This document shows positions 41,432 to 63,949 of a stretch of 64,000 nt of DNA, in pieces. The notes under the pieces are model-generated. The model saw only the letters and a list, made by a program, of their open reading frames with translations. It was not told the DNA's origin and did not search any database. Both the position numbers and the translations under genes were made by a program. Within the stretch, counting starts at the first letter, position 1, and each line of letters opens with the position of its first letter. The DNA lies in assembly GCF_023566055.1 (NCBI RefSeq), contig NZ_JALIQP010000001.1:1200059-1264058 (forward strand), read 5' to 3'. This DNA comes from Halosolutus amylolyticus. Its GTDB lineage: Archaea > Halobacteriota > Halobacteria > Halobacteriales > Natrialbaceae.

Positions 41432-43120
41432 TCAGCGCGTCGCCCGGAGTTCGTCCGCAGCCGTGTGATAGCCGTGAACGGACCGCTCGTCGAGTTCGGC
41501 CACGTGCCAGCGTCGGAGACTCTCGCGCGACCGGTCGCCTTCTATCAGCTCTTCGATATGTTCGACCAGTCGATCGGCGGCCAGTCGATCGGGGACGTTG
41601 ACGTACAGTGCGCCCCGGTCCAGCAGATCGAAGGCCCGCTCGGTCGACCGGGCGCGGAGAATCACGTCCGTCCCGTCCGCGAGCGAGAGCAGTCGATCGG
41701 AGAGGGACGTCGAGTCGACCGTCGACACGATCAGTCGAGCGTCCTCGAGGCTCGCCTTCTCTCGAGTGTACGGTTCCATCGCGTTCCCGAAGACGTAACC
41801 GGCACACTGGGCGTCCAGGGCCGTCAGGAGGGCCGGATCGTTCTCGATGACGACGTACGGACGGTCGACGTCCTCGCAGGTTTCGACGAGCCGCTGACCC
41901 TGTCTCCCGTATCCGACGATGACGACGTGGTCGGAGACGTCGTCGGGGACGGCGCTTCGTTCGTCGACCTTCTCGTGGTGGCTCGCGAGCAGCCCACGAT
42001 CGGTGAGCGTTCGGTAGACGCGCTCCGCGTGACGGTGACTGAGACTGGACGTGATCATCGTGAGCGCTGCCGTGAGAACGATGGCGTCGAACACCGACTG
42101 TCCCAGGATGCCGAGCAAGAGCGCCTCGATGGCGATGACGAGCGCGAACTCGCTGATCTGGTCGAGAGTGAGGCCGGTCAGCGTCGCCGATCGTGCCTCG
42201 TAGCCCGTGTGAATCAACAGGCCGATGGTGACCGCCGGTTTGACGACGACCGTCAGCACCACGAGGGTCGCCGCGACGATCACCGCGTCGGCCGTCGGCA
42301 CGGACACGAGGGCGCCGAGTGTAACGAAGAAGACCGCGGCGAAGAAGTCCGTGATGGACGCCAGCCCGTTGAGCACGCCGATGTGTTCGGCGGGTTCGTG
42401 ACGAACCGCGAGACCGGCGGCGAAGGCGCCGACGACGATCGAGACGCCGACGAGTTCCGCGGCAGTGAGGAACGCGACGAGCAACGCGACGACGCTGACG
42501 ATCATCACCTCGTCGGACTCGTCCGCGAGCACCCCGACGTACTCGAACAGGACCCGGTTGATCAGGACGCCAGTTCCGACGATCGCGACGCCGAACCCCA
42601 GTTTCGTCGCGATCGACGGGGCTGTTGCTGCCCCGACGCTCATCGTGAGGACGAAGACGATCGCCAGTACGTCGTGGACGAACTGGATCGACTCCGCCAG
42701 GCGACCGTGAACGAGGTTCTCCCGGACGTCCGGTTCGAGGAGGGACGTTCCGACGGTCGTCGAGGAGAGCGCGGCCGCGACACCGAGATACGTCGCCTGT
42801 TCGGCCGAGAGGCCGACGAGAACGCCCGTCGCGACGCCGATCGACCCGGTCACGACGACTTGCCCGATCGCCACGAGTTCGCTGTCGTCGAGCACGAACC
42901 GGATCGCGTCGAACTGGATACGTGCGCCGAACGCGAACACGAGCAACGCGATGCCGTATCGGGCGAGTTCGAGCGTGAGACGTTCCTCGATGACGGTCCC
43001 GGTGACGAGCCCCGCGAGGATGAGAAACGGGATGGTCGGCAGATCGAACCGGTTCGCGACGAGGAGAAACGCACCGCCGACGACGAAAATAACCGAGAGT
43101 GCGGTCACCAGTTCACTCAT
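41432..43120 (-). CDS. CPA2 monovalent cation:proton antiporter with TrkA-N domain
   Basis: 562 aa. About twelve membrane segments (residues 1-375) have the CPA2 signatures ALSSTTVG and VGAFAAGLAV. A TrkA-N/RCK nucleotide-binding domain follows (VVIVGYGRQGQRLVETCEDV). This is a KefB-like K+ or Na+ efflux system gated by NAD(H) or related ligands. Its start lies eight bases inside the upstream antiporter gene, so the two form a translationally coupled pair. Confidence 0.86.
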   Translation of the reverse strand: MSELVTALSVIFVVGGAFLLVANRFDLPTIPFLILAGLVTGTVIEERLTLELARYGIALLVFAFGARIQFDAIRFVLDDSELVAIGQVVVTGSIGVATGVLVGLSAEQATYLGVAAALSSTTVGTSLLEPDVRENLVHGRLAESIQFVHDVLAIVFVLTMSVGAATAPSIATKLGFGVAIVGTGVLINRVLFEYVGVLADESDEVMIVSVVALLVAFLTAAELVGVSIVVGAFAAGLAVRHEPAEHIGVLNGLASITDFFAAVFFVTLGALVSVPTADAVIVAATLVVLTVVVKPAVTIGLLIHTGYEARSATLTGLTLDQISEFALVIAIEALLLGILGQSVFDAIVLTAALTMITSSLSHRHAERVYRTLTDRGLLASHHEKVDERSAVPDDVSDHVVIVGYGRQGQRLVETCEDVDRPYVVIENDPALLTALDAQCAGYVFGNAMEPYTREKASLEDARLIVSTVDSTSLSDRLLSLADGTDVILRARSTERAFDLLDRGALYVNVPDRLAADRLVEHIEELIEGDRSRESLRRWHVAELDERSVHGYHTAADELRATR

Positions 43121-44837
43121 GGTCTCGTCGCTCCGGGTCGAGCGTCTCGGGGAACGGTTCGGAACGTCGTAATCGCGCGACGTCCGTCTCGATCGCCGCC
43201 TCGAACGCCTCGACGTCTTCGAAATACGCCTCGAGATAGGCCGCGAGCCGTTCGGCGGTGAGCTGGGTACTCATCACGACGTAGTGCGCCCCGCGGGCGT
43301 AGAGTTCGCGGGCGTCGTCCGCCCACTGTGCTTCGACGAACACCGTCGTCTCCTCACTAACCGCCCCGAGAAGCACCTCGTTCACGTCCCGTTCGGGGGT
43401 CGAGGAGAGCACGAAGTCGGCTCGCCCCAGCCCGGCCTCCTTCCGAATCTCCGTGTGACGGAAGTCACCGTAGATGACGTCGTAACCGGCCTCGTCCAGC
43501 GTCTCGACGTGATCGACCGTCCGGTCGATGATGACGACGTCGTCGTAGTACGCCTCGAGCGGTTCGAGGGCGCTTCGCGACAGTTCGTCGTAGCCGATGA
43601 CCACTGCGTGATTCCGGTACTCCGCTCGATCCATCTCGTGCTCGTCGCCGGTTTCCAGGCGACCGACGTGTGGGTGGAGGCGTTCGTAGAGCGCGTGACT
43701 GTACGCGATCGCGTAGACGGAGATGCTCATCGTGAGCAGGGCCACCAGACTGAGAAAGCCGAGGACTGGTGGCCCGATGACTCCCTCCGCGACCGCGACG
43801 GTGCCGACCACGAGCGCGAACTCGCTGACCTGAATCATGTTGGCACTGCCGAGAAACGCGGTTTCGAGGCTGAACCGCTGCCAGCGGATCAGGGAAAAAA
43901 ACACCCAAAACTTGGCCGAAATCAGAACCAGCGAGGCGACGACGGCTTCCCGCCAGTAGACGACCAGGTCGGCCGCCTCCAATCCCAGGCCGATCGAGAC
44001 GAAGAAGATCAGTATGAACAGATCCGTTATCGGTGTAATTCGATCCTGCAGTTCCGTGCTGTAGGGGAGCTGTGCGATGGCCAGACCGGCGAGGAACGCC
44101 CCCATCTCGATCGAGAGATCGAGTCGGTCGGCGACGAAGATGAACAGGAACGCCCAGCCGATGGCGATCAGGAAGAACACGTCTTCGTTGTCCGCGATAC
44201 GCCGGAACACCACGGGCAACAGGTAGCGAGACGCGGCGATCGCGGCGAGACCGATACCGGCGACCAGGGCGAGGACCGTAAGGAGGGTGGTCGCGACGTC
44301 GATCGCGCTGTCCGGGCGGCCGAACGCCAGTAGCGTGAGCAAGACGACGACCACGACGTCCTGGACGAGTAGCACGCCGACGTCGATCGTTCCCTGCGGC
44401 GAGGTCACCTCGTCCCTGTCGGACAGCATCTTGACGACGACTGCGGTAGAGCTGTACATCACGGCGAGTCCGATCAGCAACGACTCCCGGAACGAAAAGC
44501 CCACCAGTAGCGCAGTCCCGAGTCCGACGAGACAGACGAGTCCCATTTGCGGGACGGCAATCATGACGACCGGACGGAAGACGTGCCTGACGTCCTCGAT
44601 TCGCATCTTGACACCGAGCAGGAACAGCAGGAACGCGAGTCCGAGTTCCGACATCGTCTGCGTGAGTTCGCCGGGCGTACCGATGCCGAGGACGGCGGGT
44701 CCGAGCAGCAACCCCGTCAGGATGTAGGCGACGATGGTCGGCTGCTCTAGCTGTTTCGCGACGACGCTGGTGACGGCAGCGGCCACCAGAATGATGGTGA
44801 AATCCGCCGGGAGCGCTATCTCGGATGCCAGTGCCAT
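43113..44837 (-). CDS. CPA2 monovalent cation:proton antiporter with TrkA-N domain
   Basis: 574 aa from the ATG at 44837. An antiporter domain of about twelve segments (QPTIVAYILTGLLLGPAVLG, MYSSTAVVVKMLSDR, MGAFLAGLAIAQ) is followed by a TrkA-N domain (HAVVIGYDELSRSALEPLEA) whose Gly motif is degenerate (GYDELS instead of G-x-G-x-x-G). The partner antiporter keeps a full motif, so the two may differ in nucleotide response. First gene of the antiporter pair. Confidence 0.86.
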   Translation of the reverse strand: MALASEIALPADFTIILVAAAVTSVVAKQLEQPTIVAYILTGLLLGPAVLGIGTPGELTQTMSELGLAFLLFLLGVKMRIEDVRHVFRPVVMIAVPQMGLVCLVGLGTALLVGFSFRESLLIGLAVMYSSTAVVVKMLSDRDEVTSPQGTIDVGVLLVQDVVVVVLLTLLAFGRPDSAIDVATTLLTVLALVAGIGLAAIAASRYLLPVVFRRIADNEDVFFLIAIGWAFLFIFVADRLDLSIEMGAFLAGLAIAQLPYSTELQDRITPITDLFILIFFVSIGLGLEAADLVVYWREAVVASLVLISAKFWVFFSLIRWQRFSLETAFLGSANMIQVSEFALVVGTVAVAEGVIGPPVLGFLSLVALLTMSISVYAIAYSHALYERLHPHVGRLETGDEHEMDRAEYRNHAVVIGYDELSRSALEPLEAYYDDVVIIDRTVDHVETLDEAGYDVIYGDFRHTEIRKEAGLGRADFVLSSTPERDVNEVLLGAVSEETTVFVEAQWADDARELYARGAHYVVMSTQLTAERLAAYLEAYFEDVEAFEAAIETDVARLRRSEPFPETLDPERRDHE

Positions 44838-45032
44838 TGGCGCGGTAGCCCACACTACTGCTGGTCGCCGGTTAACGCTGTTGACGGGACGCTGACAGGG
44901 CGCGATCGACCCGTCTTGGGGGGCCTCGACCGGCAACGGCGAATCGGGTTCACGCTCCGGTGCACCCGTCGAACCGACGTTCGACTTGAGGCTGGAAGCT
45001 ACCTCTCGTGAACCGCGTCGCGGACGAGTCGT

Positions 45033-50806: not shown

Positions 50807-51307
50807 TCATTCCGGTCCGCCGTCCGTCGACTCCGGATCCGTCTCGCCCGTGGCCTCGGGTTGCGGGCCGCCCCCGGTCTGTGCCTCCTCGGCCGCTCCC
50901 CACCCGCCAGCGTCGACGACTTCGAAGAGTTTGCGCCAGTTCTCGTCGCCTTCACTCTCGGGGAGCTGATCGCGGAGTTGCTGGAAGTCGGACGGGGGAA
51001 CCGCGGTCTCGACGAGGTCGACGACGACCCGGGCGTGGTAGGCCGCCTCCGGCGGATCGACGCCCTCGATCTCGCTGACGCGTTCGACGAATTCCTGCCA
51101 GTCGAACCGCTGGCCGTGTTCCTGAACTGCACCGGTCAGGTACCACCTGATCTCGAGCGGGAGCGAGCCGGCGAGGTCGGCGGCGTTTCCCTCGGGGAGT
51201 CGCTGCCCCAGCGTCATGAGGGTCGCCCGGATCGCCCGCACTGTTCGGCCGGTGTCCGGAAGCTCGAGGCGGTGCTGAACCGTCCCGGTGAATTCGTCGA
51301 AATTCAT
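50807..51307 (-). CDS. DUF2267 protein
   Basis: 166 aa from the ATG at 51307. MNFDEFTGTVQHRLELPDTG, IRATLMTLGQRLPEGNAADL, LPLEIRWYL and GQRFDWQEFVERV match the DUF2267 protein at 33287. The last 30 or so residues are a low-complexity Gly/Glu/Thr tail. It follows the Usp remnant, as the other DUF2267 gene neighbours a Usp gene. Confidence 0.85.
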   Translation of the reverse strand: MNFDEFTGTVQHRLELPDTGRTVRAIRATLMTLGQRLPEGNAADLAGSLPLEIRWYLTGAVQEHGQRFDWQEFVERVSEIEGVDPPEAAYHARVVVDLVETAVPPSDFQQLRDQLPESEGDENWRKLFEVVDAGGWGAAEEAQTGGGPQPEATGETDPESTDGGPE

Positions 51308-51442
51308 ACCACGACGTTCGCGAACCAGCACCGTCAATCTAGGTGGTGGTCACGCCCTGCTTCGAGGGGCCACGCCCGTCGGGTCGGCGGCCGGCCGCGA
51401 TCGACGGGTGGATATCATTGAAACGGCGGCTGAACGGACTCC

Positions 51443-52167: not shown

Positions 52168-52809
52168 CTATTTCACCGTCCGGGCGAACCAGTCGGCTGC
52201 CACGTCGGCGACTTCTTCGAGTTCGCCCTCCCCTTCGAAGAGGTGCCCTGCTCCCTCGACGACGTGCAGGTCCTTCTCACAGGAAAGCTGAGCTTTGGCC
52301 TCGCGGTTGAGTTCGAGCACCTGGGTATCGCCACCGCCGACGATGAACAGGGTCGGTGCCCGAACCTCGTCGAGGACGTCGGACGCCATGTCGACGCGGC
52401 CGCCGCGCGAGACGACGGCGTCGACGGCGTCCTGCAGGCGCGCCGCTGCCCGGAGCGCGGACGCCGCTCCTGTACTGGAGCCGAAGTACCCGACGGACGC
52501 GTCACGAGTGGCCTCGCGATCCCACAGCCACTCGGTAGCCGCGACGAGACGGTCTGTCAACAGCGGGATGTCGAAGCGATTGTCGCGGATCCGGTCTTCC
52601 TCCTCGGTGAGCAGGTCGAACAGCAGGGTCCCGAGTCCCCGATCGCGGATGACGTCGGCGACGAAGTTGTTACGAGGGCTCTTTCGGCTGGACCCGCTCC
52701 CGTGAGCGAAGACGACCACCCCCGGCGCGTCCGCCGGGATTTCGAGCATACCTTCGAGTGTCACGTCGTCGACCGGGATGGATACGAGGGTCTCCGATCG
52801 CGGTGCCAT
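52168..52809 (-). CDS. Dienelactone hydrolase-like alpha/beta hydrolase
   Basis: 213 aa from the ATG at 52809. VVFAHGSGSSRKSPRNNFVA, nucleophile elbow GYFGSSTGAASAL, Asp in VGGGDTQVLE, His in GAGHLFEGEGE. It lies back to back with the phosphoribosyltransferase at 52915. In many bacteria these two domains are one fused protein, so a joint role is likely, though the reaction is unknown. Confidence 0.82.
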   Translation of the reverse strand: MAPRSETLVSIPVDDVTLEGMLEIPADAPGVVVFAHGSGSSRKSPRNNFVADVIRDRGLGTLLFDLLTEEEDRIRDNRFDIPLLTDRLVAATEWLWDREATRDASVGYFGSSTGAASALRAAARLQDAVDAVVSRGGRVDMASDVLDEVRAPTLFIVGGGDTQVLELNREAKAQLSCEKDLHVVEGAGHLFEGEGELEEVADVAADWFARTVK

Positions 52810-52914
52810 ACTCGACCCGACACCGGCAGCGATCTTTATACAGGGGGGTCGTCCCCCGCGAGTATCCCACCTGTGTGTTATATGTACTCGCATTCCGTGA
52901 TTCAATCCGGGACG

Positions 52915-53553
52915 ATGGCAGAGACTCGCCGATTCAGCGACCGGACGGACGCGGGAGAGCAACTCGCGGACGAACTCCGCGAGCGGGGACTCGACGCGGA
53001 TATCGCGCTCGCCATCCCCCGGGGCGGCCTTCCGCTCGGCCGAGCGGTGGCCGACGCGCTCGACGTTCCGCTCGACGTCGTCGTCGCGAAGAAGATCGGT
53101 GCCCCGGGCAATCCGGAGTACGCCATCGGTGCCGTCGCGAGCGACGGGAGCGTCTGGCGGAACGAACAGGGCCTTCGCGGCTCGGGGGCCGACGAGGAGT
53201 ACTTCCAGCAACAGCGCGAGGAGGAAGCAGCGAACGCCCGTCGGAAGGCCGAGCGCTACCGCGGCGATCGATCGGAACCCGACCTGACCGACGAGACCGT
53301 GGTCGTCGTGGACGACGGCGTGGCGACGGGATCGACCGTCAGAGCCTGCCTCAGGAAGCTCAGCGAAACGGACGCCGATCGCATCGTGCTGGCAGTCCCC
53401 GTCGGCCCGCCGGAGACGATCGCGGAACTGGAGGACGAGGCCGACGAGGTCGTCTGTCTCGAGACGCCGCGCGGTTTCAGGGGCGTGGGGCAGTTCTACG
53501 AGCGGTTCGGACAGGTGACCGACGAGGAGGCGATGACGTATCTGGAGCGGTGA
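52915..53553 (+). CDS. Phosphoribosyltransferase-family protein
   Basis: 212 aa. The type I PRTase PRPP loop is VVVVDDGVATGSTVRA. Upstream features are IALAIPRGGLPLGRAVADAL and KKIGAPGNPEYAIGAV. The ATG at 52915 (MAETRRFSD) was chosen over the ATG at 52882. The substrate is unknown. Together with the divergent hydrolase it equals the two halves of the mycobacterial protein Rv0571c. Confidence 0.85.
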   Translation: MAETRRFSDRTDAGEQLADELRERGLDADIALAIPRGGLPLGRAVADALDVPLDVVVAKKIGAPGNPEYAIGAVASDGSVWRNEQGLRGSGADEEYFQQQREEEAANARRKAERYRGDRSEPDLTDETVVVVDDGVATGSTVRACLRKLSETDADRIVLAVPVGPPETIAELEDEADEVVCLETPRGFRGVGQFYERFGQVTDEEAMTYLER

Positions 53554-53704: not shown

Positions 53705-54922
53705 ATGGATATCGCTGACATCGTTTCGAAAGAGTACGTCGAATTCACCCCGGAGACGCCCGTCTCGAAGCTCGTCGGGACGTTCGCGGATTCCGACGTC
53801 AAGGGCGTCGTGGTCCGCGACGACGAGTTCGAGGGGGTCGTCACCAGGAGACAACTCGCCACGTCGCATCGCCAACCGAACGAAAAGCTCGGATCGCTCG
53901 TCTGGCACGTGCCCCGGCTCGCGCCGGACGAGGACGTCCGCAAGGTGGCACAGCTCATGATCGACAGCGATTCGCAGCTGCTCCCCGTGTTCGAGGGCCA
54001 GGAACTGGCCGGCGTCGTCACCGTCGACGCGATCCTCCGGAAGGTCGAGCCGTTCCTCGACGCGGCGACCGTTGCAGAAGCCCACTCCGCCGATCTCGTC
54101 TCGATCGAACCGGAGACCACCCTCGGCGACGCACTCAACGTCTTCCGGGAGAACCGCATCACGCACCTGCCGGTCGTCGAGGACAGCACGGCAGTCGGTA
54201 TCCTCAGTCTCTACGACGTGACCGGCATCACCGTCCGGGCCGAGGTACAGAGCCAGGGCGGCGACGCGGGCGGGACGGATCCGTTCGGGGGTGAAATATC
54301 CGACAGCACGGCTCGTGCACGCCGTGGCGGCTACGGGGCCCGGGACGGTGAGTCCGCGCGGATGCTCGACCTCCCGGTCCGGGACGTCATGGTTTCGCCG
54401 GTTCGCACGATCCACCCGGACGAGACGCTCGACGTCGCCGTCGCAGAGATGTTCGAGATCGACGCGTCGTCGCTGGTCGTCACCGAGAACGGCGCTCCTC
54501 ACGGCATCGTGACGAAGACGGACGTTCTCGACTCGCTCACCTGGGAGGCCGGCGGGAACCGCGGCGTCCAGGTCTACGGCACCGACCTGATCGACGACGT
54601 GACCTACGACGAAATCATCGCGAAAGTCGAGAAGTTCGACGACCGGGACCACGGGATGAACGTCCTCGACGCGAAGGTCCACCTTCACGAACACGACGAG
54701 ACGCGCCGCGGGAGACCGCTCCTGCTCGCTCGCGTCCGACTCCACACCGATCGGGGGCTGTTTATCGCCTCCGGGGAGGGGTACGGCGCGAGTCACGCGA
54801 TCAACGAGGCGAGCAAGGTGCTGGAGCGACAGATCCGCGACGAGAAGACCTACGGACGGACCAAGAAACCCCCGGACGAGGAGTTCTGGGAGAAACGCTT
54901 CGGCTGGCTGCTCGAGGAGTGA
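53705..54922 (+). CDS. Four-CBS protein with C-terminal HPF/RaiA-like domain
   Basis: 405 aa. Four CBS motifs follow in order: residues 1-55 (VVVRDDEFEGVVTRRQL), 60-115, 125-180 (ITHLPVVEDSTAVGILSL) and 225-280. The last 110 residues resemble ribosome hibernation factors: IIAKVEKFDD, then AKVHLHEHDETRRGRPLLLA and GLFIASGEGYGASHAINEA, then LERQIRDEK. CBS pairs sense adenosine nucleotides, and HPF binds 30S and stops translation. The fusion implies energy-gated ribosome hibernation (inference). A paralog is at 62166-63374. Confidence 0.82.
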   Translation: MDIADIVSKEYVEFTPETPVSKLVGTFADSDVKGVVVRDDEFEGVVTRRQLATSHRQPNEKLGSLVWHVPRLAPDEDVRKVAQLMIDSDSQLLPVFEGQELAGVVTVDAILRKVEPFLDAATVAEAHSADLVSIEPETTLGDALNVFRENRITHLPVVEDSTAVGILSLYDVTGITVRAEVQSQGGDAGGTDPFGGEISDSTARARRGGYGARDGESARMLDLPVRDVMVSPVRTIHPDETLDVAVAEMFEIDASSLVVTENGAPHGIVTKTDVLDSLTWEAGGNRGVQVYGTDLIDDVTYDEIIAKVEKFDDRDHGMNVLDAKVHLHEHDETRRGRPLLLARVRLHTDRGLFIASGEGYGASHAINEASKVLERQIRDEKTYGRTKKPPDEEFWEKRFGWLLEE

Positions 54923-54988
54923 GCGACCCGGCCACCGTGTCGTGGTCGTCGACGCTCTCGAGGTCGGGCGGGGACGGGCGTCGTGACG

Positions 54989-55438
54989 TCAGCGCACGAC
55001 GGTCACCGGAACGGTCGCCCGCTCGACCAGCGACTTCGCGACGCTGCCGAGCATCAGCCCGGCGCGCTCCGATCGGCCCTGGTGGCCGACGAAGATCGTG
55101 TCGAAACCCTCGACCTCCGCATAGTCGGCGATCACCGGAACCGGATCGCCGTAGAGGTGTTCGCTCTCGACGTCGTGGCCGCGTTCCGCGGCGAGTTCGA
55201 CCGCGTCGTCGAGGACGGCCTGGCCGCGCTGTTCGGCGTCTTCGACGCTTTCGATGATCAGTCGCTGGTCCGCGTCCGAGAGCGACGAGATCGGTTCGCT
55301 CCCGCCCTCGTCGTAGACGGTGGGGTCGACCGCGTGGACGACCGTGATCGATCCGCCCATCGCGTCCACGACGTCGGCGGCGTAGGCGAGGGCGTTCTCG
55401 GACGCTTCGGAACCGTCGACCGCTACGAGAGCCTTCAT
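54989..55438 (-). CDS. Universal stress protein, single domain
   Basis: 149 aa. MKALVAVDGSEASENALAYA, loop GHQGRSERAGLMLGSVAK, end VPVTVVR. It is more like bacterial Usp proteins than its neighbours and lacks the aromatic insert. It converges with the CBS-HPF gene. Start ATG at 55438. Confidence 0.9.
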   Translation of the reverse strand: MKALVAVDGSEASENALAYAADVVDAMGGSITVVHAVDPTVYDEGGSEPISSLSDADQRLIIESVEDAEQRGQAVLDDAVELAAERGHDVESEHLYGDPVPVIADYAEVEGFDTIFVGHQGRSERAGLMLGSVAKSLVERATVPVTVVR

Positions 55439-55516
55439 GCCCGTATCTTCGGTCCCGAGTCAGTTAAAACGAATCGTGAGGTCGAACTCCCTGCTCTACC
55501 GCAGGCGGGGCCCCGG

Positions 55517-55711
55517 TCACGTCTCCGGCCCGATACGCTTGACACGTCCCCGTGGACCGGACTCGAGCTTCACGAAGATTCCTTCGGGGTGGGTCCGTTC
55601 GTCGGTCAGGACGGCGCCGTCCTCCCCGACGACGCGGTCGCCGTTCTCCTGTTCGATCTCCACGGTCATCCCCTGGACGAGTTCGTCTCGGGTCGGAAGG
55701 TCCGCTGACAC
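55517..55711 (-). CDS. YwbE/DUF2196-family small protein
   Basis: 64 aa from a GTG at 55711. RDELVQGMTVEIEQENG, DERTHPEGIFVKLESG and GRVKRIGPE match the compact beta fold of YwbE (about 64 aa in Bacillus). The GTG start gives the family length; longer in-frame starts upstream are not family-like. It may bind nucleic acid (the fold resembles small RNA-binding barrels), but the function is unknown. Confidence 0.78.
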   Translation of the reverse strand: MSADLPTRDELVQGMTVEIEQENGDRVVGEDGAVLTDERTHPEGIFVKLESGPRGRVKRIGPET

Positions 55712-55874
55712 GTGTTCGACCGAACGGTGGCGAACCCCTTCGAGTGACGGCGTCGTTCCACTCGTTCGAACGCGTCCACGAAAACCGTGTCCAGTCGTCG
55801 ATCGATCGCATATGCCGGGTGGTACCGGTTCGCAGGAAACACATTTATCGTTTCGTCGCCTACGATCGGTCACA

Positions 55875-56480
55875 ATGATGGCGACGACGCACGCGCTCTG
55901 GGGGATGGTGCTCGCACTTCCCGTCCTCGCGATCGCCCCGGAACTCGCACCCGTCGCGTTCGTGGCGGGGTTCGTCGGCGGGCTGGCTCCCGATCTGGAC
56001 CTCTACACGGGCCACCGGAAGACGTTCCACTACCCCGTCTACGCGTCGATCGCGGCGGTGCCGGCGCTGGCAGCGGCGCTCCTCGCGCCGACGACGCTGA
56101 CGGTCGCACTCGGCGTGGGACTCGCCGCGGCGGCCCTCCACGCGGTGGCCGACGCCTTCGGCGGGGGCCTCGAGCTACGGCCCTGGGAAGGAACCTCCGA
56201 GCGGGCGGTCTACAGCCACTATCACGATCGATGGGTCCGCCCCCGTCGCTGGGTCCGTTACGACGGCGCTCCCGAAGACCTCGCGCTCGCCGGCGTCGCG
56301 GCGGCGCCGCTGGCAATGATCGGTACCGGGCCGATCACGACCGTCGTGCTCGCGTTCGTCACGGTGTCGGCCGTCTACGTCCTGTTGCGCAGGCACCTCG
56401 CCGGCGTCGCCGAGCGCCTCGTCCGGCTGGTTCCGGACTCGCTGACTCCCTATCTCCCCGCCCGATATCGGCGGGCCTGA
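55875..56480 (+). CDS. YdjM/DUF457-type membrane-bound metal-dependent hydrolase
   Basis: 201 aa. The first segment starts MMATTHALWGMVLAL. The metal-binding residues H-A (TTHALWG), LAPDLDLYTGHRKTFHY and LHAVADAFG are the DUF457 pattern. About five membrane segments. The ATG at 55875 was chosen, with 55878 also possible. Substrate unknown. Repeat R2 follows 20 bases after the stop. Confidence 0.8.
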   Translation: MMATTHALWGMVLALPVLAIAPELAPVAFVAGFVGGLAPDLDLYTGHRKTFHYPVYASIAAVPALAAALLAPTTLTVALGVGLAAAALHAVADAFGGGLELRPWEGTSERAVYSHYHDRWVRPRRWVRYDGAPEDLALAGVAAAPLAMIGTGPITTVVLAFVTVSAVYVLLRRHLAGVAERLVRLVPDSLTPYLPARYRRA

Positions 56481-56500
56481 CGCGGTCGCGACGCCGACTG

Positions 56501-56581
56501 ATACGGTCCCCTGTACCGAGTTCCCGGCGCACCAGCGATCCGTCTGCGGGTGCGCCAGAACTGACGGACAGTAGTCCGTAT
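56501..56581. repeat. 81-bp palindromic repeat R2 (diverged copy)
   Basis: The ends ATACGG and CCGTAT match R3 and R4. The central stem has changed to GGCGCACC...GGGTGCGCC, where R3 has GGCGCAACC...GGTTGCGCC: both arms changed together, so the stem is preserved. It lies between the DUF457 gene and a Usp gene. Confidence 0.75.
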
Positions 56582-56722
56582 GACCGACCGGGTGGGTCGC
56601 GTCCACGACTGATCGACGATCGGGACTGTCGGGCCCGAGGCCGCCAGCCTGACGCCGGCCGGTACTGCTCGGCAGTCGGGGCCGCCGCGGCCACTATGGC
56701 GCTCCGGAGTGAAGACTGGCGT

Positions 56723-57163
56723 ATGTCCAGCAGGATTCTCGTTCCGGTCGATGGCTCGCCGCTGTCCATGCGTGCGCTCCGGCACGCGTTGCGGACGTTT
56801 CCCGACGCGGAGATTACGGCCTACCACGTGGTCGACCTGTTCGAACCCGACACCGTCCCTGACGTCGAGTCGTCGTACGAACCGATGATCGGCTCGCCCG
56901 AGTGGTACAGCGTCGTCGACGACGCGACCGACCGGCTCTTCGCGGAGGTCGACGAGATCGCCGCGGACTACGATCGATCGGTCGCGACCGAGTCGGACAT
57001 CGGCGATCCGAAGCGACTCGTCGTCGAGTACGCCACGGAGGAAGACGTCGATCACGTCGTCGTCGGCTCTCACGGACGGATAGCCCCACAGCGATCGATC
57101 TACGGGAGCGTCACCGAGGCGGTCGTGCGCCGCGCACCGGTTCCGGTCACCGTCGTTCGGTGA
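56723..57163 (+). CDS. Universal stress protein, single domain
   Basis: 146 aa. MSSRILVPVDGSPLSMRALR, insert EPMIGSPEWYSVVDDATDRL, loop GSHGRIAPQRSIYGSVTE. Same subfamily as 33854 and 45033. The ATG at 56723 was chosen; an in-frame stretch upstream is not Usp-like. It is flanked by repeats R2 and R3. Confidence 0.9.
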   Translation: MSSRILVPVDGSPLSMRALRHALRTFPDAEITAYHVVDLFEPDTVPDVESSYEPMIGSPEWYSVVDDATDRLFAEVDEIAADYDRSVATESDIGDPKRLVVEYATEEDVDHVVVGSHGRIAPQRSIYGSVTEAVVRRAPVPVTVVR

Positions 57164-57174
57164 GGGCCCCTGTG

Positions 57175-57256
57175 ATACGGTTTACTGTACGTCAGTTCCG
57201 GCGCAACCGCGATCCGGGCGGCGGTTGCGCCGGTACATCGGTACAGCAATCCGTAT
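57175..57256. repeat. 82-bp palindromic repeat R3
   Basis: Runs from ATACGG to CCGTAT with the stem GGCGCAACCGC/GCGGTTGCGCC at the centre and outer imperfect arms containing CTGTAC and GTACAG. All 82 bases are identical to R4 at 63374-63455. It begins 11 bases after the Usp stop. Confidence 0.88.
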
Positions 57257-57423
57257 GAGTCGACGCTCGCACCGACTCGCCAGCCGTCCGTCGTCGGACC
57301 GCCGTCTCGACGATGGTGTTCTCGCCGCGATCCGTCTCTACCGTCCCCGTGAGACGTCTCCGTCGTTCTCTCACTGTGGGAGTCGTCCCCAAGGTTGTTC
57401 ACCCACAGGTACCAAGTGCTACC

Positions 57424-57912
57424 ATGGCGTTTCTCGTCCCCTTCGACGGGTCCTATCTGGCGGAGGCTGCACTGATGCGGGCGGCCGAGTACGGCGAGGC
57501 GCTCGACGAGGACGTGATCGCGCTCTCCGTCGTTCCCGACGACGAGTCGTACGCGATCGACGTCGGGTGGTACGAGCAGCGAGAAGACGACCCGTTCAGC
57601 GTTCAGTACGTCGCGGGCAAACTACGTGACGGCGTGGCCGACATCGCCCCCGAGGCCGCGTTCCGGCACGAGCGGATCGACACCGGGACGGCCGCCGCGA
57701 TCGCAGCCCGGATCACCGAGATCGCCGACGAGATTCGGCCGTCGGTCGTCTTCCTCGGCACGGAGAACGTCGGCGAGATCGCCCAGCCGGTGACCAGCGT
57801 CGCCGGCGGCGTCGCCGAAAACGCGACGTACGACGTCCACGTCGTCCGGTACTACGCACCGCCGTCCATTCCAGCGGTTGGACTCGAGGAGGGGTCGTAC
57901 ACGGAGGGGTGA
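57424..57912 (+). CDS. Usp-like protein without nucleotide loop
   Basis: 162 aa. MAFLVPFDGSYLAEAALMRA, then a long acidic insert (DVGWYEQREDDPFSVQYVAG). The loop position reads GTENVGEIAQPVTSVAGGVA, without the ATP signature. It is the close paralog of the protein at 49960. The ATG at 57424 starts the fold. Confidence 0.82.
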   Translation: MAFLVPFDGSYLAEAALMRAAEYGEALDEDVIALSVVPDDESYAIDVGWYEQREDDPFSVQYVAGKLRDGVADIAPEAAFRHERIDTGTAAAIAARITEIADEIRPSVVFLGTENVGEIAQPVTSVAGGVAENATYDVHVVRYYAPPSIPAVGLEEGSYTEG

Positions 57913-57923
57913 CCGAAGGGGCG

Positions 57924-58013
57924 GTCACGGCTCGCCGGGGATCGACTGCCGAGACGTCACGGCTCACCGAGGACCGACTGCCATGGCGGTCACGACTCAC
58001 CAGGGATCGACTG
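57924..58013. repeat. Degenerate 32-33-bp tandem repeat, about three copies
   Basis: Units beginning GTCACGGCTC or GTCACGACTC start at 57924, 57956 and 57989, each followed by an AGGGATCGACTG-like stretch. The third is shorter. It fills most of the gap between the two Usp genes. Confidence 0.6.
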
Positions 58014-58070
58014 GTCACGACCGATGAACGTACGAGTGGCTTGATGACCGTCCGGGTCGAACGAATCGGT

Positions 58071-58946
58071 ATGTTCAGCACCGTACTCGTCCCGACGGAC
58101 GGCAGCGCCGGCGCCGAAGCGACGATCGCCCACGCAACCGAACTGGCCGACGCCTACGGCGCGGCCGTCCACGCCCTCTCGGTCGTCGACACCGGTGTCG
58201 AACCGATCGGACTCGGGGCCGACGATCGCGAGTCGCTCTACGAGTCCTCCGAGCGACGGGGCCGCGAGGCGACGATCAGGATCACGAATCGGGCGGAAGA
58301 GCGCGACCTGCAGGCCGCACGGGACGTTCGCGAGGGCGTCCCCTACAGGGAGATCCTCGCGTACGTCGACGAGGTCGACGTCGACCTGATCGTCATGGGG
58401 ACCCACGGCCGGACCGGAGCCGATCGGGTTCGCCTGGGCAGTACCACCGAACGGGTGATCACGCGGGCGGACGTGCCGGTGCTGTCGGTTCGGCTGGCGG
58501 AAAGCGAGGAACCCGTGCCCGGGGACGGCGGCTACGATCGACTCGTGATTCCGACGGACGGGAGCGACGCCGCCGAACGCGCCGCGGAGGCGGCACTCGA
58601 CATCGCCGGGAAGTACGACGCTGACGTCCACGCCGTCTACGTGGTCGACTCGACGACGTACGACCTCGAGGACGCGCCCCGGAGTATCGTGGGGTTGCTC
58701 AAAGAGGGCGGACAGAATGCGACGGAGACGATCGCCGAGATGGCACGCGAGCGAGGTCTCGACGTGGGAACCGACGTCCGCCGCGGCGCTCCGGCCGAGG
58801 AACTGCTCGACTACGCCTCGGGTGTCGACGTCGACCTCGTCGCCATGGGCACGCGCGGGAGTGCGGTCGGTTCCGGCCGACTCCTCGGGAGCACGACGGC
58901 GCGCGTCGTCCGGCGATCGCCGATCCCCGTCCTGACGGTGAACTAA
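58071..58946 (+). CDS. Tandem universal stress protein (two Usp domains)
   Basis: 291 aa from the ATG at 58071. Domain 1: TVLVPTDGSAGAEATIAHAT, loop GTHGRTGADRVRLGSTTE. Domain 2: RLVIPTDGSDAAERAAEAAL, loop GTRGSAVGSGRLLGSTTA. Both loops keep Gly and Ser/Thr. It groups with the protein at 48605. Repeat M2 begins within its stop codon. Confidence 0.9.
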   Translation: MFSTVLVPTDGSAGAEATIAHATELADAYGAAVHALSVVDTGVEPIGLGADDRESLYESSERRGREATIRITNRAEERDLQAARDVREGVPYREILAYVDEVDVDLIVMGTHGRTGADRVRLGSTTERVITRADVPVLSVRLAESEEPVPGDGGYDRLVIPTDGSDAAERAAEAALDIAGKYDADVHAVYVVDSTTYDLEDAPRSIVGLLKEGGQNATETIAEMARERGLDVGTDVRRGAPAEELLDYASGVDVDLVAMGTRGSAVGSGRLLGSTTARVVRRSPIPVLTVN

Positions 58947-59026
58947 GTAGCCACTGAAAGTCACTGCACACCTGATCGCAGGACAGCTTCGCGATCAGTG
59001 TGTAAATCGTTTCAGTGGCTACTATA
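58945..59026. repeat. About 82-bp palindromic repeat M2 (MITE-like)
   Basis: Left end AGTAGCCACTGAAAG, right end TTTCAGTGGCTACTATA, inner arms CTGATCGC and GCGATCAG. It differs from M1 at only a few positions. Its left end overlaps the TAA of the Usp gene and its right end lies nine bases from the stop of the convergent FMN-binding gene, so it fills the whole gap. Confidence 0.82.
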
Positions 59027-59034
59027 GGGGCCCG

Positions 59035-59508
59035 CTACTCGTCCGGTTCGAGCGCCGGCGGGAGCCCCTGGTGTTTGATGCCGGTCCGATCGTCGATCCG
59101 GAACTCGTAGACGGCCACCTCGCCAGAGAGGGAGGCCGTTTCGAACAGGTCCGGGCGCCACACGTCGCCCATGATCTCCTCGAGGTCGTCCCACTCCGAC
59201 TCGGGGACGGCGGCGATCGATCCCGACAGGAGCACGCTCTGCCAGTTGTACATCGTGTCGACCGCGAAGACGAGGAAGCTCGCGGTGTCTGCCGCGTTGC
59301 TCATCGCTTCTTTCCGGCTCCCGGCCCCGAGGAGATACGTGAAATAGAGTCGGCGGTCCCCGTCGTACCCGAACGATAGCGGAAGGAGATACGGGCCGTC
59401 CTCCCCGGGGAGGCCGAGCACGCCCATCTTCCGGTTCGACAGGAAGTTTCGAATCTCGTCGTCGGTCATCTCGGCCAGGCCGTACTCCCGTAGTTCGTCG
59501 ACGGACAT
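59035..59508 (-). CDS. Pyridoxamine 5'-phosphate oxidase-like FMN split-barrel protein
   Basis: 157 aa from the ATG at 59508. MTDDEIRNFLSNRKMGVLGL, LPLSFGYDGDRRLYFTYLLG, FLVFAVDTMYNWQSVLLSGS: a split-barrel flavin- or F420-binding fold. Longer N-terminus than the two paralogs. It converges with a tandem Usp gene, separated only by repeat M2. Confidence 0.82.
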   Translation of the reverse strand: MSVDELREYGLAEMTDDEIRNFLSNRKMGVLGLPGEDGPYLLPLSFGYDGDRRLYFTYLLGAGSRKEAMSNAADTASFLVFAVDTMYNWQSVLLSGSIAAVPESEWDDLEEIMGDVWRPDLFETASLSGEVAVYEFRIDDRTGIKHQGLPPALEPDE

Positions 59509-59608
59509 ACTGTGACGGACTCCGGGCGGCACGAAAAAGCCTCACCCCGTCTGCGCTCGCCGAGGGCCGATCGGACACGCCTCCAACCCTGCTCCGAAAC
59601 CCGCGCGT

Positions 59609-60979
59609 CTACTCCGAAATCCGGGCTTCGAGCGTCGATCGCAGGTCGTCCGTCTCCGCCTGCAGCCCGTCGCTGATCCGGACGTCGTACGGGGCGGGAT
59701 CCTCGATTCGACGGTGTCGCTCCGGCAGTTTCCGACGCTTCTTACGGGCAGTTTCTCGGATTTCGTCGAGGCCCGGGATCTCGTAGACGCGATCGCCGTC
59801 CTCGATGACGGTGACCAGTTGCTCCTCGCCGGGTCCCGACTCGCCCCGGAGTCCGAGGACGTCGCCGGCGTACTCCCCGTCGGATTCGATCCGGCGGACG
59901 CTTTTCGCCCCGGGATAGGTCACCTTCCCTTTCGAGAGTTTCATCGTCGGCTGCATCTCGCCGTCGCGTTCGACCGCAACGAGTTTGTAGACCCCCTCGA
60001 CCTTGGGGGCGTCCGTACTCGTCACCAGGGCGGTCCCCGGTCCGAAGCCCGCGCCGACGCCGCCGCGATCGAAGAACTCGTGGATGGCGTACTCGTCCAT
60101 CCCGGAGGAGATGAACTGGTCGACCTCGGGGATCACCTCGTCGACGGCTTTCGAGAGCGCCGCGAGATCGCCCGAGTCGAGACGGACGCCGCGGAGATCC
60201 ACGTCCTTGCGTTCGGCGATCGCGTTTGCGACCTCCGCACCCCGAACGGTGTCGTAGGTGTCGATCAGGAGTACGCTCTCCGACCCGTACTCGTCGACGA
60301 ACGTCTCGAACGCGTCGCGTTCGTACTCGAAGCTCTGGACCCACGAGTGGGCCATCGTCCCCGAGACGGGGATCCCGAACGCCTCGCCCGCGGCGACGTT
60401 CGAGGTGGCGTCGAAGCCGCCGACGTACGCGGCCCGCGCGGCCTTCATCCCGGCGTCGGTGCCGTGGGCGCGTCGCGACCCGAAGTCGACCAGCCGCTGG
60501 CCGTCCCCCTCGCGATCGATCACGTCCCGCATCCGGCTGGCTTTCGTCGCGATCAGCGACTGGTAGCCGACCTGGTTGATCAGCGCGGTCTCGAGGAGCT
60601 GTGCCTCCTGGATGGGTGCCGTCACCTCGAGCAACGGCTCGTTCGGGAACACCGGCGTCCCTTCCGGCAGCGCGCGAATCTCGCCGGTGAACTCGAAGTC
60701 GGCCAGCCACGAGAGAAACGCCTCGTCGAAGTCCTGTTCGGCCAGGAACTCGAGGGCGCGATCGCCGAACGAGAGGGTCTCGACGTAATGGACGGCCTGT
60801 TCGAGTCCCGCGGCGATCATGTACCCCCGGTTCGGCGGCAGGTCGCGGACGAAGAGACTGAACGTCGCTCTCGGGATGTGGTCCTGTGCGTGGTAGGCCT
60901 GCATCATCCGCAGCTCGTAGAGGTCGGTAAACAGCGGGAGCGTCTCCTGGGTCAGGTAGCCGAAGCTGGTTTCGGACAT
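59609..60979 (-). CDS. pncB: Nicotinate phosphoribosyltransferase
   Basis: 456 aa. LFTDLYELRMMQAY at the start, VDFGSRRAHGTDAGMKAARA as substrate site, GTMAHSWVQSF, LIDTYDTVRGAEVA, and RLDSGDLAALSKAVDEV. It makes nicotinate mononucleotide from nicotinate and PRPP, the entry step of NAD salvage. The NAPRTase family is long and this length fits. In the stress island it could maintain the NAD pool, like PncB2 in mycobacterial dormancy (inference). Confidence 0.92.
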   Translation of the reverse strand: MSETSFGYLTQETLPLFTDLYELRMMQAYHAQDHIPRATFSLFVRDLPPNRGYMIAAGLEQAVHYVETLSFGDRALEFLAEQDFDEAFLSWLADFEFTGEIRALPEGTPVFPNEPLLEVTAPIQEAQLLETALINQVGYQSLIATKASRMRDVIDREGDGQRLVDFGSRRAHGTDAGMKAARAAYVGGFDATSNVAAGEAFGIPVSGTMAHSWVQSFEYERDAFETFVDEYGSESVLLIDTYDTVRGAEVANAIAERKDVDLRGVRLDSGDLAALSKAVDEVIPEVDQFISSGMDEYAIHEFFDRGGVGAGFGPGTALVTSTDAPKVEGVYKLVAVERDGEMQPTMKLSKGKVTYPGAKSVRRIESDGEYAGDVLGLRGESGPGEEQLVTVIEDGDRVYEIPGLDEIRETARKKRRKLPERHRRIEDPAPYDVRISDGLQAETDDLRSTLEARISE

Positions 60980-61057
60980 CGGATCACCTGCACGAACTAC
61001 GTGAATCGTGATAATTGTCGGTGTCTGTTCAACTCAACGCGGTGTGTCGCCCTGACG

Positions 61058-61405
61058 TCACGCGATTTCGACGGCATCAGTCGCGTCGAGAACGGCCGAA
61101 ACGAGATCGCACTCGTAGTAGCGGACCGTCTTGCGCTGCCGATCGTAGTCGACGATCTTTCCGTCCTCGAGCGACGGCAGGTGGACGTGGTGGAGTTCCG
61201 TCTTCCAGGTGGCTGTCTCGCGCCTGTCGGTCACGGTGGACAGGGTCGCTGCCAGGTTTTCAACTCTCATCTCGTTGTCGTCGTACCCGTCCAGTACGGC
61301 GACGATCGCTCGGCGCCGAGATTCCGCGAGCAATCGAAGGACGGCGTCCGCATCGCACGTACAGTGGACGGTGCCGTCGTCGTCGACGATCGAGCACTCA
61401 GTCAT
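61058..61405 (-). CDS. DUF7344 winged-helix protein
   Basis: 115 aa. LLAESRRRAIVAVLDGYDDN is the HTH start, and KTELHHVHLPSLEDGKIVDY is the DUF7344 signature. The first 17 residues include three Cys (C4, C15, C17), suggesting metal or redox sensing, which the copy at 13501 lacks. Probable regulator. Its position upstream of pncB on the same strand makes pncB a possible target. Confidence 0.75.
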   Translation of the reverse strand: MTECSIVDDDGTVHCTCDADAVLRLLAESRRRAIVAVLDGYDDNEMRVENLAATLSTVTDRRETATWKTELHHVHLPSLEDGKIVDYDRQRKTVRYYECDLVSAVLDATDAVEIA

Positions 61406-61608
61406 GGTTTTCGGTGGTTGAACTTCGATCGCGTGGCCTAAAGTAGGCGTACCGTCTTCCCACCGCGTGATAGATCGTCGATCGGTGAACCGTCAGGATT
61501 TTCGAACGGCGACGGGTCGACGGCGACAGTCGATGCCGGGGGCTCTCGGCGGGCGTCCCGCGGGCGAGCGCGGTCCGGATCGCCGGAATCGCCGGTGCCG
61601 GCGATCGA

Positions 61609-62022
61609 TCACCGGACGACCGTCACCGGAACCGACGCGCGGCGAACGACCTGTTCGGCGACGCTACCCAGCAGAACCCGCGAGACGCCCGACCGACCGT
61701 GACTGCCGAGGACGATCGTGTCGACGTCGGCGTCGTCGGCGAACTCGACGATCCCGCGGGCCGGCGACCCGACGATCGTCTCGGTCTCGATCGACGCGTC
61801 GTGGTCGGCGCGATCCTCGGCCATCTCGAACAGCTGTTCGGCCTGCTTCTCCGCCGCTTCGATCGCCAGCTGGAAGTTGTACGGTGCGTCGCCGCTGTAG
61901 GCCGATATCGACGGGTTGAGGACGTGCAACACCGTGATGTCGGCGTCGGGATACGTCTCGAGGGCGTGGTCGAGTGCCTTTCGTGCCGGGTCGGAGTCGT
62001 CGAGCGGGACGAGAACGTGCAT
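61609..62022 (-). CDS. Universal stress protein, single domain
   Basis: 137 aa from the ATG at 62022. MHVLVPLDDSDPARKALDHA has Asp-Asp-Ser where others have D-G-S. Loop GSHGRSGVSRVLLGSVAE. Divergent from the second CBS-HPF gene. Last Usp gene of the island. Confidence 0.9.
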   Translation of the reverse strand: MHVLVPLDDSDPARKALDHALETYPDADITVLHVLNPSISAYSGDAPYNFQLAIEAAEKQAEQLFEMAEDRADHDASIETETIVGSPARGIVEFADDADVDTIVLGSHGRSGVSRVLLGSVAEQVVRRASVPVTVVR

Positions 62023-62165
62023 AGCCGATCGTTCGACCGGTCGCCGTATATACCGCAGGGAACGTTCCCGATACGTGGACACTCGATCCGGCTGAACGTT
62101 TCGACAACTCTCCCTGCGTGGGAAGAGTCGACAGCAGGTATTCCGACGGGCCACAACAGTTACGT

Positions 62166-63374
62166 ATGAACGTACGCGAAATCGTCGCCGACGAGTTCGA
62201 GACGTACGACGAGTCGACGCCGCTGTCGAAACTCCGCGGCGCGTTCGAGGAGACCGGCCGGCAGACGCTGCTGATCACCAGCGACGGCGCGTTCGAGGGC
62301 GTCGTCACCCGGCGAGACGTCCTCTCGTCCCACCAGAAGACCTCCCGCAAGGCGTCCTCGCTCGCCCGCCCGGTCCCGACGATCGATCGCGACGAGGACG
62401 TCCGGGAGGCCGCACGGCTCATGATCGCCGGCGACACCAGGGCGCTCCCGGTGCTCGACGGCGAGGACCTCGCGGGCGTCGTTCGTGCGGACGACCTCCT
62501 GGAACTGGTCCAGCCGTACCTGTCGGTGCTCGCGGTCGACGACGTCGCGACGCGGGAGGTCGTCACCGTGGGCCCGGACGAGTCGCTGGGCGCGGTGCTC
62601 TCGACGTTCCGGACCGAACGCATCCAGCACCTGCCCGTCACCCAGTCCGGGACCGACGAGGTCGTCGGCATCGTGAGTCTCGCCGACGTCCTCGAGTTCG
62701 TCACCCGGGAACTCCAGCGCTCGCAGGGCGGCGATCCGGCGGCCCACATGGACGCCGCCTCCGGCGGCCACCACGGCGGTTTCGGCTCCCGGGAGGGCGA
62801 GAGCGACGACCTGCTCGGCCTGCCGGTGCGCAACGTGATGGTCGAGACCCTCGGGACCGCACGGGCGAGCGAAACCGTTGACGAGACGCTCGCGACGATG
62901 CTCGAGCACGGGGCCTCCTCCTCGATCGTCCTCGACGAGGCGGGCGCTCTCGACGGCATCGTCACGAAGACGGACCTGCTCGAGTCGCTGACCTGGACCG
63001 ACGAGGGACGGCTTCCCGTGCAGATCTACGGCGCGGACCTCCTGTCGGATCTCTCGCGATCGGCCCTGGCCGATCGGATCGAGGCGGTCGCGGAGAAGTA
63101 CGCGGAGATGCGCGTCCTCGAGGCCAGGGTCCACCTCCAGAAGCACACCGAGCAACTCCGGGGCGTTCCCCTGCTCCTGGCCCGGGTTCGGCTCTACACC
63201 GACAAGGGGCTGTTCGTTGCCTCCGGCGAGGGGTACGGCGACGGTCACGCCGTGTCGCTCGCGCTGAACGCGGTCGAACGCCAGATTCTCGAGGGGAAGA
63301 CCCACGCTTTGAGCGAGCGGACCGACGACGACGCGGACGTCGCCAAGATGTACGGCTGGTGGCTCAGCGAGTGA
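62166..63374 (+). CDS. Four-CBS protein with C-terminal HPF/RaiA-like domain
   Basis: 402 aa from the ATG at 62166. CBS modules lie at about 1-55 (LITSDGAFEGVVTRRDV), 60-115, 125-180 (IQHLPVTQSGTDEVVGIVSL) and 225-280. An HPF-like C-terminus (ARVHLQKHTEQLRGVPLLLA, GLFVASGEGYGDGHAVSLAL, ERQILEGK) follows. A His/Gly-rich linker (SGGHHGGFGSREGE) separates CBS 3 and 4. It is collinear with the protein at 53705, so the pair arose by duplication. Repeat R4 starts at the last base of its stop codon. Confidence 0.82.
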   Translation: MNVREIVADEFETYDESTPLSKLRGAFEETGRQTLLITSDGAFEGVVTRRDVLSSHQKTSRKASSLARPVPTIDRDEDVREAARLMIAGDTRALPVLDGEDLAGVVRADDLLELVQPYLSVLAVDDVATREVVTVGPDESLGAVLSTFRTERIQHLPVTQSGTDEVVGIVSLADVLEFVTRELQRSQGGDPAAHMDAASGGHHGGFGSREGESDDLLGLPVRNVMVETLGTARASETVDETLATMLEHGASSSIVLDEAGALDGIVTKTDLLESLTWTDEGRLPVQIYGADLLSDLSRSALADRIEAVAEKYAEMRVLEARVHLQKHTEQLRGVPLLLARVRLYTDKGLFVASGEGYGDGHAVSLALNAVERQILEGKTHALSERTDDDADVAKMYGWWLSE

Positions 63375-63505: not shown

Positions 63506-63949
63506 TCACTCGCCCGTTTTCCGGCCGGTGATCGACTCGATCTCCAGTTCGTAGATCTCGAGGTCGATCGCCTCGACGTCCTGGTCGAAGACGTACAGCC
63601 GGTGGAACGACTCGTTGAGCGTCGTCGCGTCGAAAGCGTCCCGTTCCGAGTCGTCGAGTTTCCGCAACGGGCCCCTGACGAGCACGCTCCAGCTATCCGT
63701 GCCCGAACCGTCGCTGTAGAGACTCAGGCAGGCGTCGGTCGTCGTCTCGACGTACGCCATCTTCGTACTCGACCCGTCGTCCGCCAGCCGGATATACAGC
63801 GACTCGCCGTCGTAGTGGTATCCAACCGGGATCGCGTAGGCGGACGAATCGTCCGCAAGTCCCAGAACTCCGACCTCTCCCGCTTCGAGGCGGCGATCGA
63901 CCTCGTCGGCCTCCATGCCGAACGTGTACACGTACTCGATTCTGTCCAT
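63506..63949 (-). CDS. Pyridoxamine 5'-phosphate oxidase-like FMN split-barrel protein
   Basis: 147 aa. Starts MDRIEYVYTFGMEADEVDRR; GEVGVLGLADDSSAYAIPVG and YHYDGESLYIRLADDG are the split-barrel strands. Third such protein in the window. Flavin or F420 binding expected, reaction unknown. Start ATG at 63949, only 51 bases from the window edge, so its upstream region is incomplete. Confidence 0.82.
   Translation of the reverse strand: MDRIEYVYTFGMEADEVDRRLEAGEVGVLGLADDSSAYAIPVGYHYDGESLYIRLADDGSSTKMAYVETTTDACLSLYSDGSGTDSWSVLVRGPLRKLDDSERDAFDATTLNESFHRLYVFDQDVEAIDLEIYELEIESITGRKTGE

Follow-up and report, generated by a model that had tools for sequence, protein, structure and literature searches.

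Two genes in a 64,000-nucleotide stretch of the Halosolutus amylolyticus genome (contig NZ_JALIQP010000001.1; hereafter called the window) very probably encode haloarchaeal ribosome hibernation factors of the HibA type. They are accessory, long-loop paralogues which would plug and protect idle ribosomes, and a stress-linked use is suggested by the gene island that surrounds them (probability of this reading roughly 0.85). HibA proteins, published in 2026, are a family of hibernation factors for archaeal ribosomes in which four CBS domains are combined with an HPF-fold domain (PMC13324472). The fusion of CBS and HPF domains is already known from that work and therefore no discovery in itself. 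What is added is the haloarchaeal expansion of the family into several paralogues with a longer loop towards the peptidyl-transferase centre (PTC), an extra tail and, in some clades, a tie to stress islands; the main text of the HibA paper does not discuss several copies per genome.

Two HibA-type proteins in the window

The sequence-only reading of the window had described two diverged proteins about 8 kb apart, both with four CBS motifs and a C-terminal HPF-like domain. Both open reading frames could be confirmed; the proteins are 44% identical and their genes are separated by 7.2 kb.

53705 to 54922, + strand, 405 aa: copy 1, a HibA paralogue with four CBS domains, a long PTC loop (segment of about 52 residues), a C-terminal HPF-fold domain and a GW-containing tail
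62166 to 63374, + strand, 402 aa: copy 2, a second HibA paralogue from a separate clade, with four CBS domains, a long loop with the motif GGFGSREG, a C-terminal HPF-fold domain and a YGWWL tail
63003 to 63371, + strand: HPF-fold domain of copy 2, the part modelled alone (AlphaFold, Foldseek, VIA-align)

The reading frame of copy 2 opens at a GTG (62118), its start was set at the ATG at 62166 by alignment with relatives, and it ends at 63374. Four stretches matching the CBS family of Pfam (PF00571) were found in each of the two proteins, with whole-protein E values of 2e-35 (copy 1) and 5e-38 (copy 2). The CBS part is highly acidic in both copies, with net charges of -25 and -27. High acidity is usual in proteins of halophiles.

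Both copies are related to HibA from Pyrococcus abyssi (chain 9sr9_H), copy 1 in two stretches (E 3e-31) and copy 2 over residues 2-376 (E 2e-41). The PDB entry 9sr9 is the HibA-ATP model (PMC13324472), and further HibA entries are 9sra-9srf and 9t7h. The relationship to chain a of PDB entry 9l96 is closer still: copy 1 matches it over 404 residues with about 72% identity (E 8e-199), copy 2 along almost all of its sequence (E 7e-101), and the phmmer scores against this type of protein are 664 and 341 bits, respectively. The four N-terminal CBS domains, the C-terminal HPF fold, the long loop between CBS3 and CBS4 and the full-length sequence relationship that characterize HibA are thus found in both copies.

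The C-terminal domain has the HPF fold

The HPF domain is barely visible to Pfam in copy 1 (PF02482, S30AE; E 4e-4, 21.5 bits, below the gathering cut-off of 23.7) and invisible in copy 2, where no match to PF02482 was obtained; a structural test was therefore made. From an alignment of ten sequences, AlphaFold modelled the last 123 residues of copy 2 with a mean pLDDT of 80. The model shows the order strand-helix-three strands-helix, which is that of HPF, and each of the first 26 Foldseek rows is an HPF, YfiA, RafH or pY protein. In VIA-align it superimposes on Escherichia coli HPF with a Z score of 11.6 and an rmsd of 2.4 over 88 residues, whereas dsRNA-binding domains score lower (Z about 7-8). 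This comparison with HPF had been named as a check by the sequence-only reading, with an unrelated fold as the outcome against it. Because Foldseek and VIA-align both match HPF, the HPF reading stands. In copy 1 the domain rests on the weak Pfam match together with the full-length match to HibA. The HPF-domain residues E329, R332, G333, R342, T345 and G358 are kept in essentially all of the 143 aligned sequences (rounded 100%), that of P. abyssi included.

The missing Pfam match and the long terminal branch of copy 2 in the tree (0.33) could also indicate that this copy is degenerate or repurposed and has lost its action on ribosomes, serving for instance as an adenylate sensor of the stress island. 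We regard this as very improbable, since its reading frame is full-length with high GC3, the conserved HPF residues and a confident HPF fold are retained, and the same architecture is kept throughout its clade, whose 17 sequences come from several families.

Core and accessory paralogues

A genome search revealed five HibA genes in H. amylolyticus, so that the two copies seen in the window, both correctly located, are an undercount. One of the five, at C4:245356, is of the core type, and the remaining four belong to an accessory group, which is present in many haloarchaea in addition to the core gene. Core HibA is nearly universal in the order, with one per genome: at E <= 1e-95 it was found in 281 of the 293 genomes.

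A tree was built from 143 sequences. Four groups in it have 100% SH-aLRT support each: core HibA, the clade of copy 2 (17 rows), the clade of copy 1 (41 rows, among them chain a of 9l96) and a further clade (44 rows) with the two other accessory copies of the genome. The window copies fall in separate, fully supported accessory clades and are therefore not the product of a recent tandem duplication; to call them duplicates, as had been done earlier, is misleading, as these clades are old.

Core and accessory proteins differ in their architecture. The PTC-loop segment comprises 38-52 residues in accessory proteins and 27 in all 31 core sequences compared, which come nearly all from Natrialbaceae. 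The GW-containing tail is present in 101 of 111 accessory sequences and in none of the 31 core sequences, and the loop motif GG[FYH]G[ASR][RK][ED]G is found in 93 of the 111 accessory sequences.

Some members of the 44-row clade are nearly identical across families, with end branches of about 0.01, which suggests horizontal transfer within this clade. One HibA copy of H. amylolyticus (L017, G000:C4:546607-547815) is nearly identical to copies in Haloterrigena sp. H1 and in Natronomonas gomsonensis; the latter belongs to another family, and for this copy the near-identity suggests a recent horizontal transfer. A HibA-like gene is present in 39 plasmid records at E <= 1e-60. Haloferax mediterranei, for instance, carries two accessory genes on the plasmids pHME505 and pHME132 (L208:12001-13221 and L210:8001-9209). 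Natronomonas sp. LN261 has an accessory gene directly beside a core gene, both on the same strand (L110:3083-5490). A viral origin was considered and dropped, as a single, not exhaustive pattern scan of viral contigs found no relative.

Ribosome binding of HibA and its relatives

In P. abyssi the 30S subunit accommodates the HPF domain of HibA in its mRNA/tRNA channel. The CBS module plugs the tRNA sites of the 50S subunit, where it adopts three positions, and the loop that links CBS3 to CBS4 is wrapped around the PTC (PMC13324472). Two archaeal insertions in the HPF domain are a further feature of HibA. HibA inhibits translation in vitro, and Thermococcus barophilus without HibA shows a reduction of stationary-phase 70S ribosomes by about 60% and delayed regrowth (PMC13324472).

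The homologue of copy 1, deposited as a CBS domain-containing protein and about 72% identical to it, is a chain in four PDB entries, 9l96, 9l98, 9l9c and 9l9v, which also contain haloarchaeal uL16. A search of the PDB, the 9l9x entries included, found neither haloarchaeal uS12 nor uS7. The copy 1-type protein is therefore seen on the large subunit only, and its small-subunit mode is borrowed from P. abyssi. A literature search did not find a paper describing the 9l9x structures. The protein in these entries shares loop, tail and clade with copy 1 and comes from another haloarchaeon; to copy 2, which belongs to another clade, it is more distant. Together with the architecture of P. abyssi HibA, the presence of this homologue in four haloarchaeal ribosome entries lends good support to the earlier assignment to ribosome hibernation, and ribosome binding and inhibition may be expected of both window proteins by analogy.

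The same entries, and a PTC-reaching loop that is 11-25 residues longer than that of core HibA, could mean that the long-loop accessory paralogues mainly bind and stabilise free 50S subunits and do not clamp 70S ribosomes. We consider this unlikely. The particles behind the 9l9x entries may be 70S ribosomes whose maps were focused on the large subunit, the HPF residues of P. abyssi HibA are kept in the accessory proteins, those of the window type included, which suggests small-subunit binding, and in P. abyssi the complexes of HibA with the 50S subunit have low stability (PMC13324472).

Gene neighbourhood

The HibA copies of the window lie among genes for universal stress proteins (Usp) and further genes of the island:

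50807 to 51337, - strand: DUF2267 protein
52915 to 53553 (start approximate), + strand: phosphoribosyltransferase-domain gene, directly upstream of copy 1
54989 to 55438, - strand: universal stress protein, adjoining copy 1
57313 to 58946, + strand: pair of genes for universal stress proteins in the interval between copy 1 and copy 2; the second of them encodes two domains
59035 to 59532, - strand: pyridoxamine-phosphate-oxidase-like (PNPOx-like) protein
59609 to 60979, - strand: nicotinate phosphoribosyltransferase
61609 to 62154, - strand: universal stress protein, adjoining copy 2
63506 to 63949, - strand: second pyridoxamine-phosphate-oxidase-like protein

Seventeen reading frames of the window match Usp, where about 1.3 would be expected from random haloarchaeal DNA. 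Genes within 5 kb of HibA were counted at loci of the different clades and at random stretches; the loci are related to each other, the p values ignore this kinship, and the random stretches are not genome-matched. With this reservation, 22 of the 35 loci from the copy 1 clade have a Usp gene, compared with 4 of the 21 core loci (p 0.0015). Phosphoribosyltransferase genes occur at 13 of the 35 copy 1-clade loci and at none of the 41 comparison loci, core or random (p 1e-5), DUF2267 genes at 15 of 35 and 1 of 41 (p 1e-5), and SagB-type dehydrogenases at 7/35 versus 0/41 (p 0.003). For PNPOx-like genes the clades of copy 1 and copy 2 were taken together (11 of 41 loci versus 0 of 41, p 2e-4). 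Hsp20 is not significant as an island marker (4/35 versus 1/41 loci, p 0.13), and the other accessory loci show no significant enrichment of Usp (11/38, p 0.24). A site-2 protease was dropped as a marker, as the seed had matched the CBS domains of HibA itself. The clades of both window copies sit in Usp-rich islands, whereas the core copies do not.

The stress-gene island of the window (30427-62154) is far larger than the HibA pair and contains many Usp reading frames. It also includes three genes for PNPOx-like proteins, one for a P-type cation ATPase at 37636-40398 and, at 41432-44936, two for Na+/H+ exchangers that carry TrkA_N domains. Elsewhere the window encodes a PAS/GAF/BAT/HTH_10 regulator (13977-16274) and a protein with PPDK_N and PEP-utilizers domains (20316-22970). 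At 52168-53553 the phosphoribosyltransferase gene (+ strand) and a dienelactone-hydrolase-like gene (- strand) are arranged head to head or overlap, the starts being approximate.

A plasmid of Natrinema caseinilyticum is annotated with a similar arrangement, in which roughly 6 kb separate two HibA genes and Usp, Hsp20 and phosphoribosyltransferase genes are present as well. The second HibA of this plasmid is closest to an outlying Natrinema sequence and not to copy 2. Next to it lies a gene with the annotation ribosomal stalk protein P1 (L211:16946-18681), and a stalk protein beside a hibernation factor on a plasmid is an odd pairing. A possible likeness between the island and the DosR dormancy regulon of mycobacteria was considered and nothing is claimed from it; a literature search on this likeness found nothing direct.

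Adenylate binding and nucleotide gating

In CBS3 and CBS4 the [S/T]xxD signature (D174, T267, D270) is kept in every aligned accessory and core row (111 and 31, respectively), and the window proteins are likely to bind adenylate at this site. HibA-CM of P. abyssi binds AMP with a Kd of 12 uM, ADP with 65 uM and ATP with 113 uM (PMC13324472). Both observations are consistent with the earlier proposal of a nucleotide-gated hibernation, in which AMP or ATP between CBS3 and CBS4 would switch ribosome binding and thus couple energy charge to hibernation. However, AMP or ATP left the binding classes of P. abyssi HibA in reconstituted complexes largely unchanged, natively bound HibA carried no nucleotide, and what the CBS module does is to bind the ribosome as a plug (PMC13324472). 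Occupying tRNA sites is the role shown for the HibA CBS module, and by analogy it would be that of the window proteins. In the window proteins the signature residues of the CBS3/CBS4 site are intact, which supports the proposal in part, and the switch itself has not found backing: control of ribosome binding by adenylate in the window proteins is possible but unsupported, because the CBS3/CBS4 residues are kept, yet AMP and ATP were without clear effect in P. abyssi. As an account of how the window proteins work we regard it as doubtful.

Proposed role of the accessory paralogues

We favour the reading of both copies as HibA-type plugs. The HPF-fold domain would occupy the mRNA/tRNA channel of the small subunit, the four-CBS module would fill the tRNA sites on the large subunit, and the long loop between CBS3 and CBS4 would reach the PTC, so that an idle ribosome would be kept inactive and protected. 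The location in Usp-rich islands suggests that the accessory paralogues are made under particular stresses, alongside a standard core HibA encoded elsewhere. Most likely, the window copies act as stress-specific extra hibernation factors.

More tentatively, and at somewhat less than even odds, haloarchaeal hibernation may have two tiers. Core HibA would serve ordinary starvation, while the accessory long-loop clade, which is partly plasmid-borne and provides up to four extra copies, would belong to a dormancy-type stress island with universal stress proteins, phosphoribosyltransferase, DUF2267 and PNPOx-like proteins; the paralogues could then lead to different inactive states, such as a protected free 50S subunit. 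This raises the question whether archaeal ribosome dormancy is tailored to the kind of stress. Core and accessory proteins offer a natural comparison for the roles of the PTC loop and the CBS module, which is possible in genetically tractable haloarchaea such as Hfx. mediterranei with its plasmid-borne accessory copies.

Comparison with known hibernation factors

The CBS module of copy 2 is closest, in a Foldseek search with the full-length model, to the archaeal ribosome-bound proteins SriA/B, SriD and Dri and to adenylate-binding archaeal and AMPK-gamma folds. The entries 9sr9 and 9l96 are absent among the best rows of this search, perhaps since the library ends in April 2026, and this absence is given no weight. 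Dri and SriA-D are hibernation factors made of a CBS module and resemble the window proteins in CBS fold and ribosome binding, but they lack an HPF domain. An identity with Dri or other standalone CBS-module factors (CM-1 to CM-5, Sri) is ruled out by the HPF-fold domain of both window proteins. A literature search on Sri proteins found no relevant paper.

Bacterial HPF/RaiA and mycobacterial RafH share the fold of the C-terminal domain and are without a CBS module. In contrast to the bacterial-type proteins (PF02482), the window sequences score below the S30AE cut-off of Pfam (copy 1) or do not match at all (copy 2). HVO_2384 of Haloferax volcanii (PMC12607858) is probably a core HibA and not of the accessory type of the window.

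Among the closest known systems is HibA of P. abyssi and T. barophilus, with which the window copies share the four CBS domains, the HPF/RaiA-fold domain, the long CBS3/CBS4 loop, the adenylate-site residues of CBS3 and CBS4 and the full-length match. They differ in a PTC-loop segment of 38-52 instead of 27 residues, an extra C-terminal tail ending in GW.L and a more acidic sequence, and the haloarchaeal type is further set apart by several paralogues per genome and by its stress-island neighbourhood.
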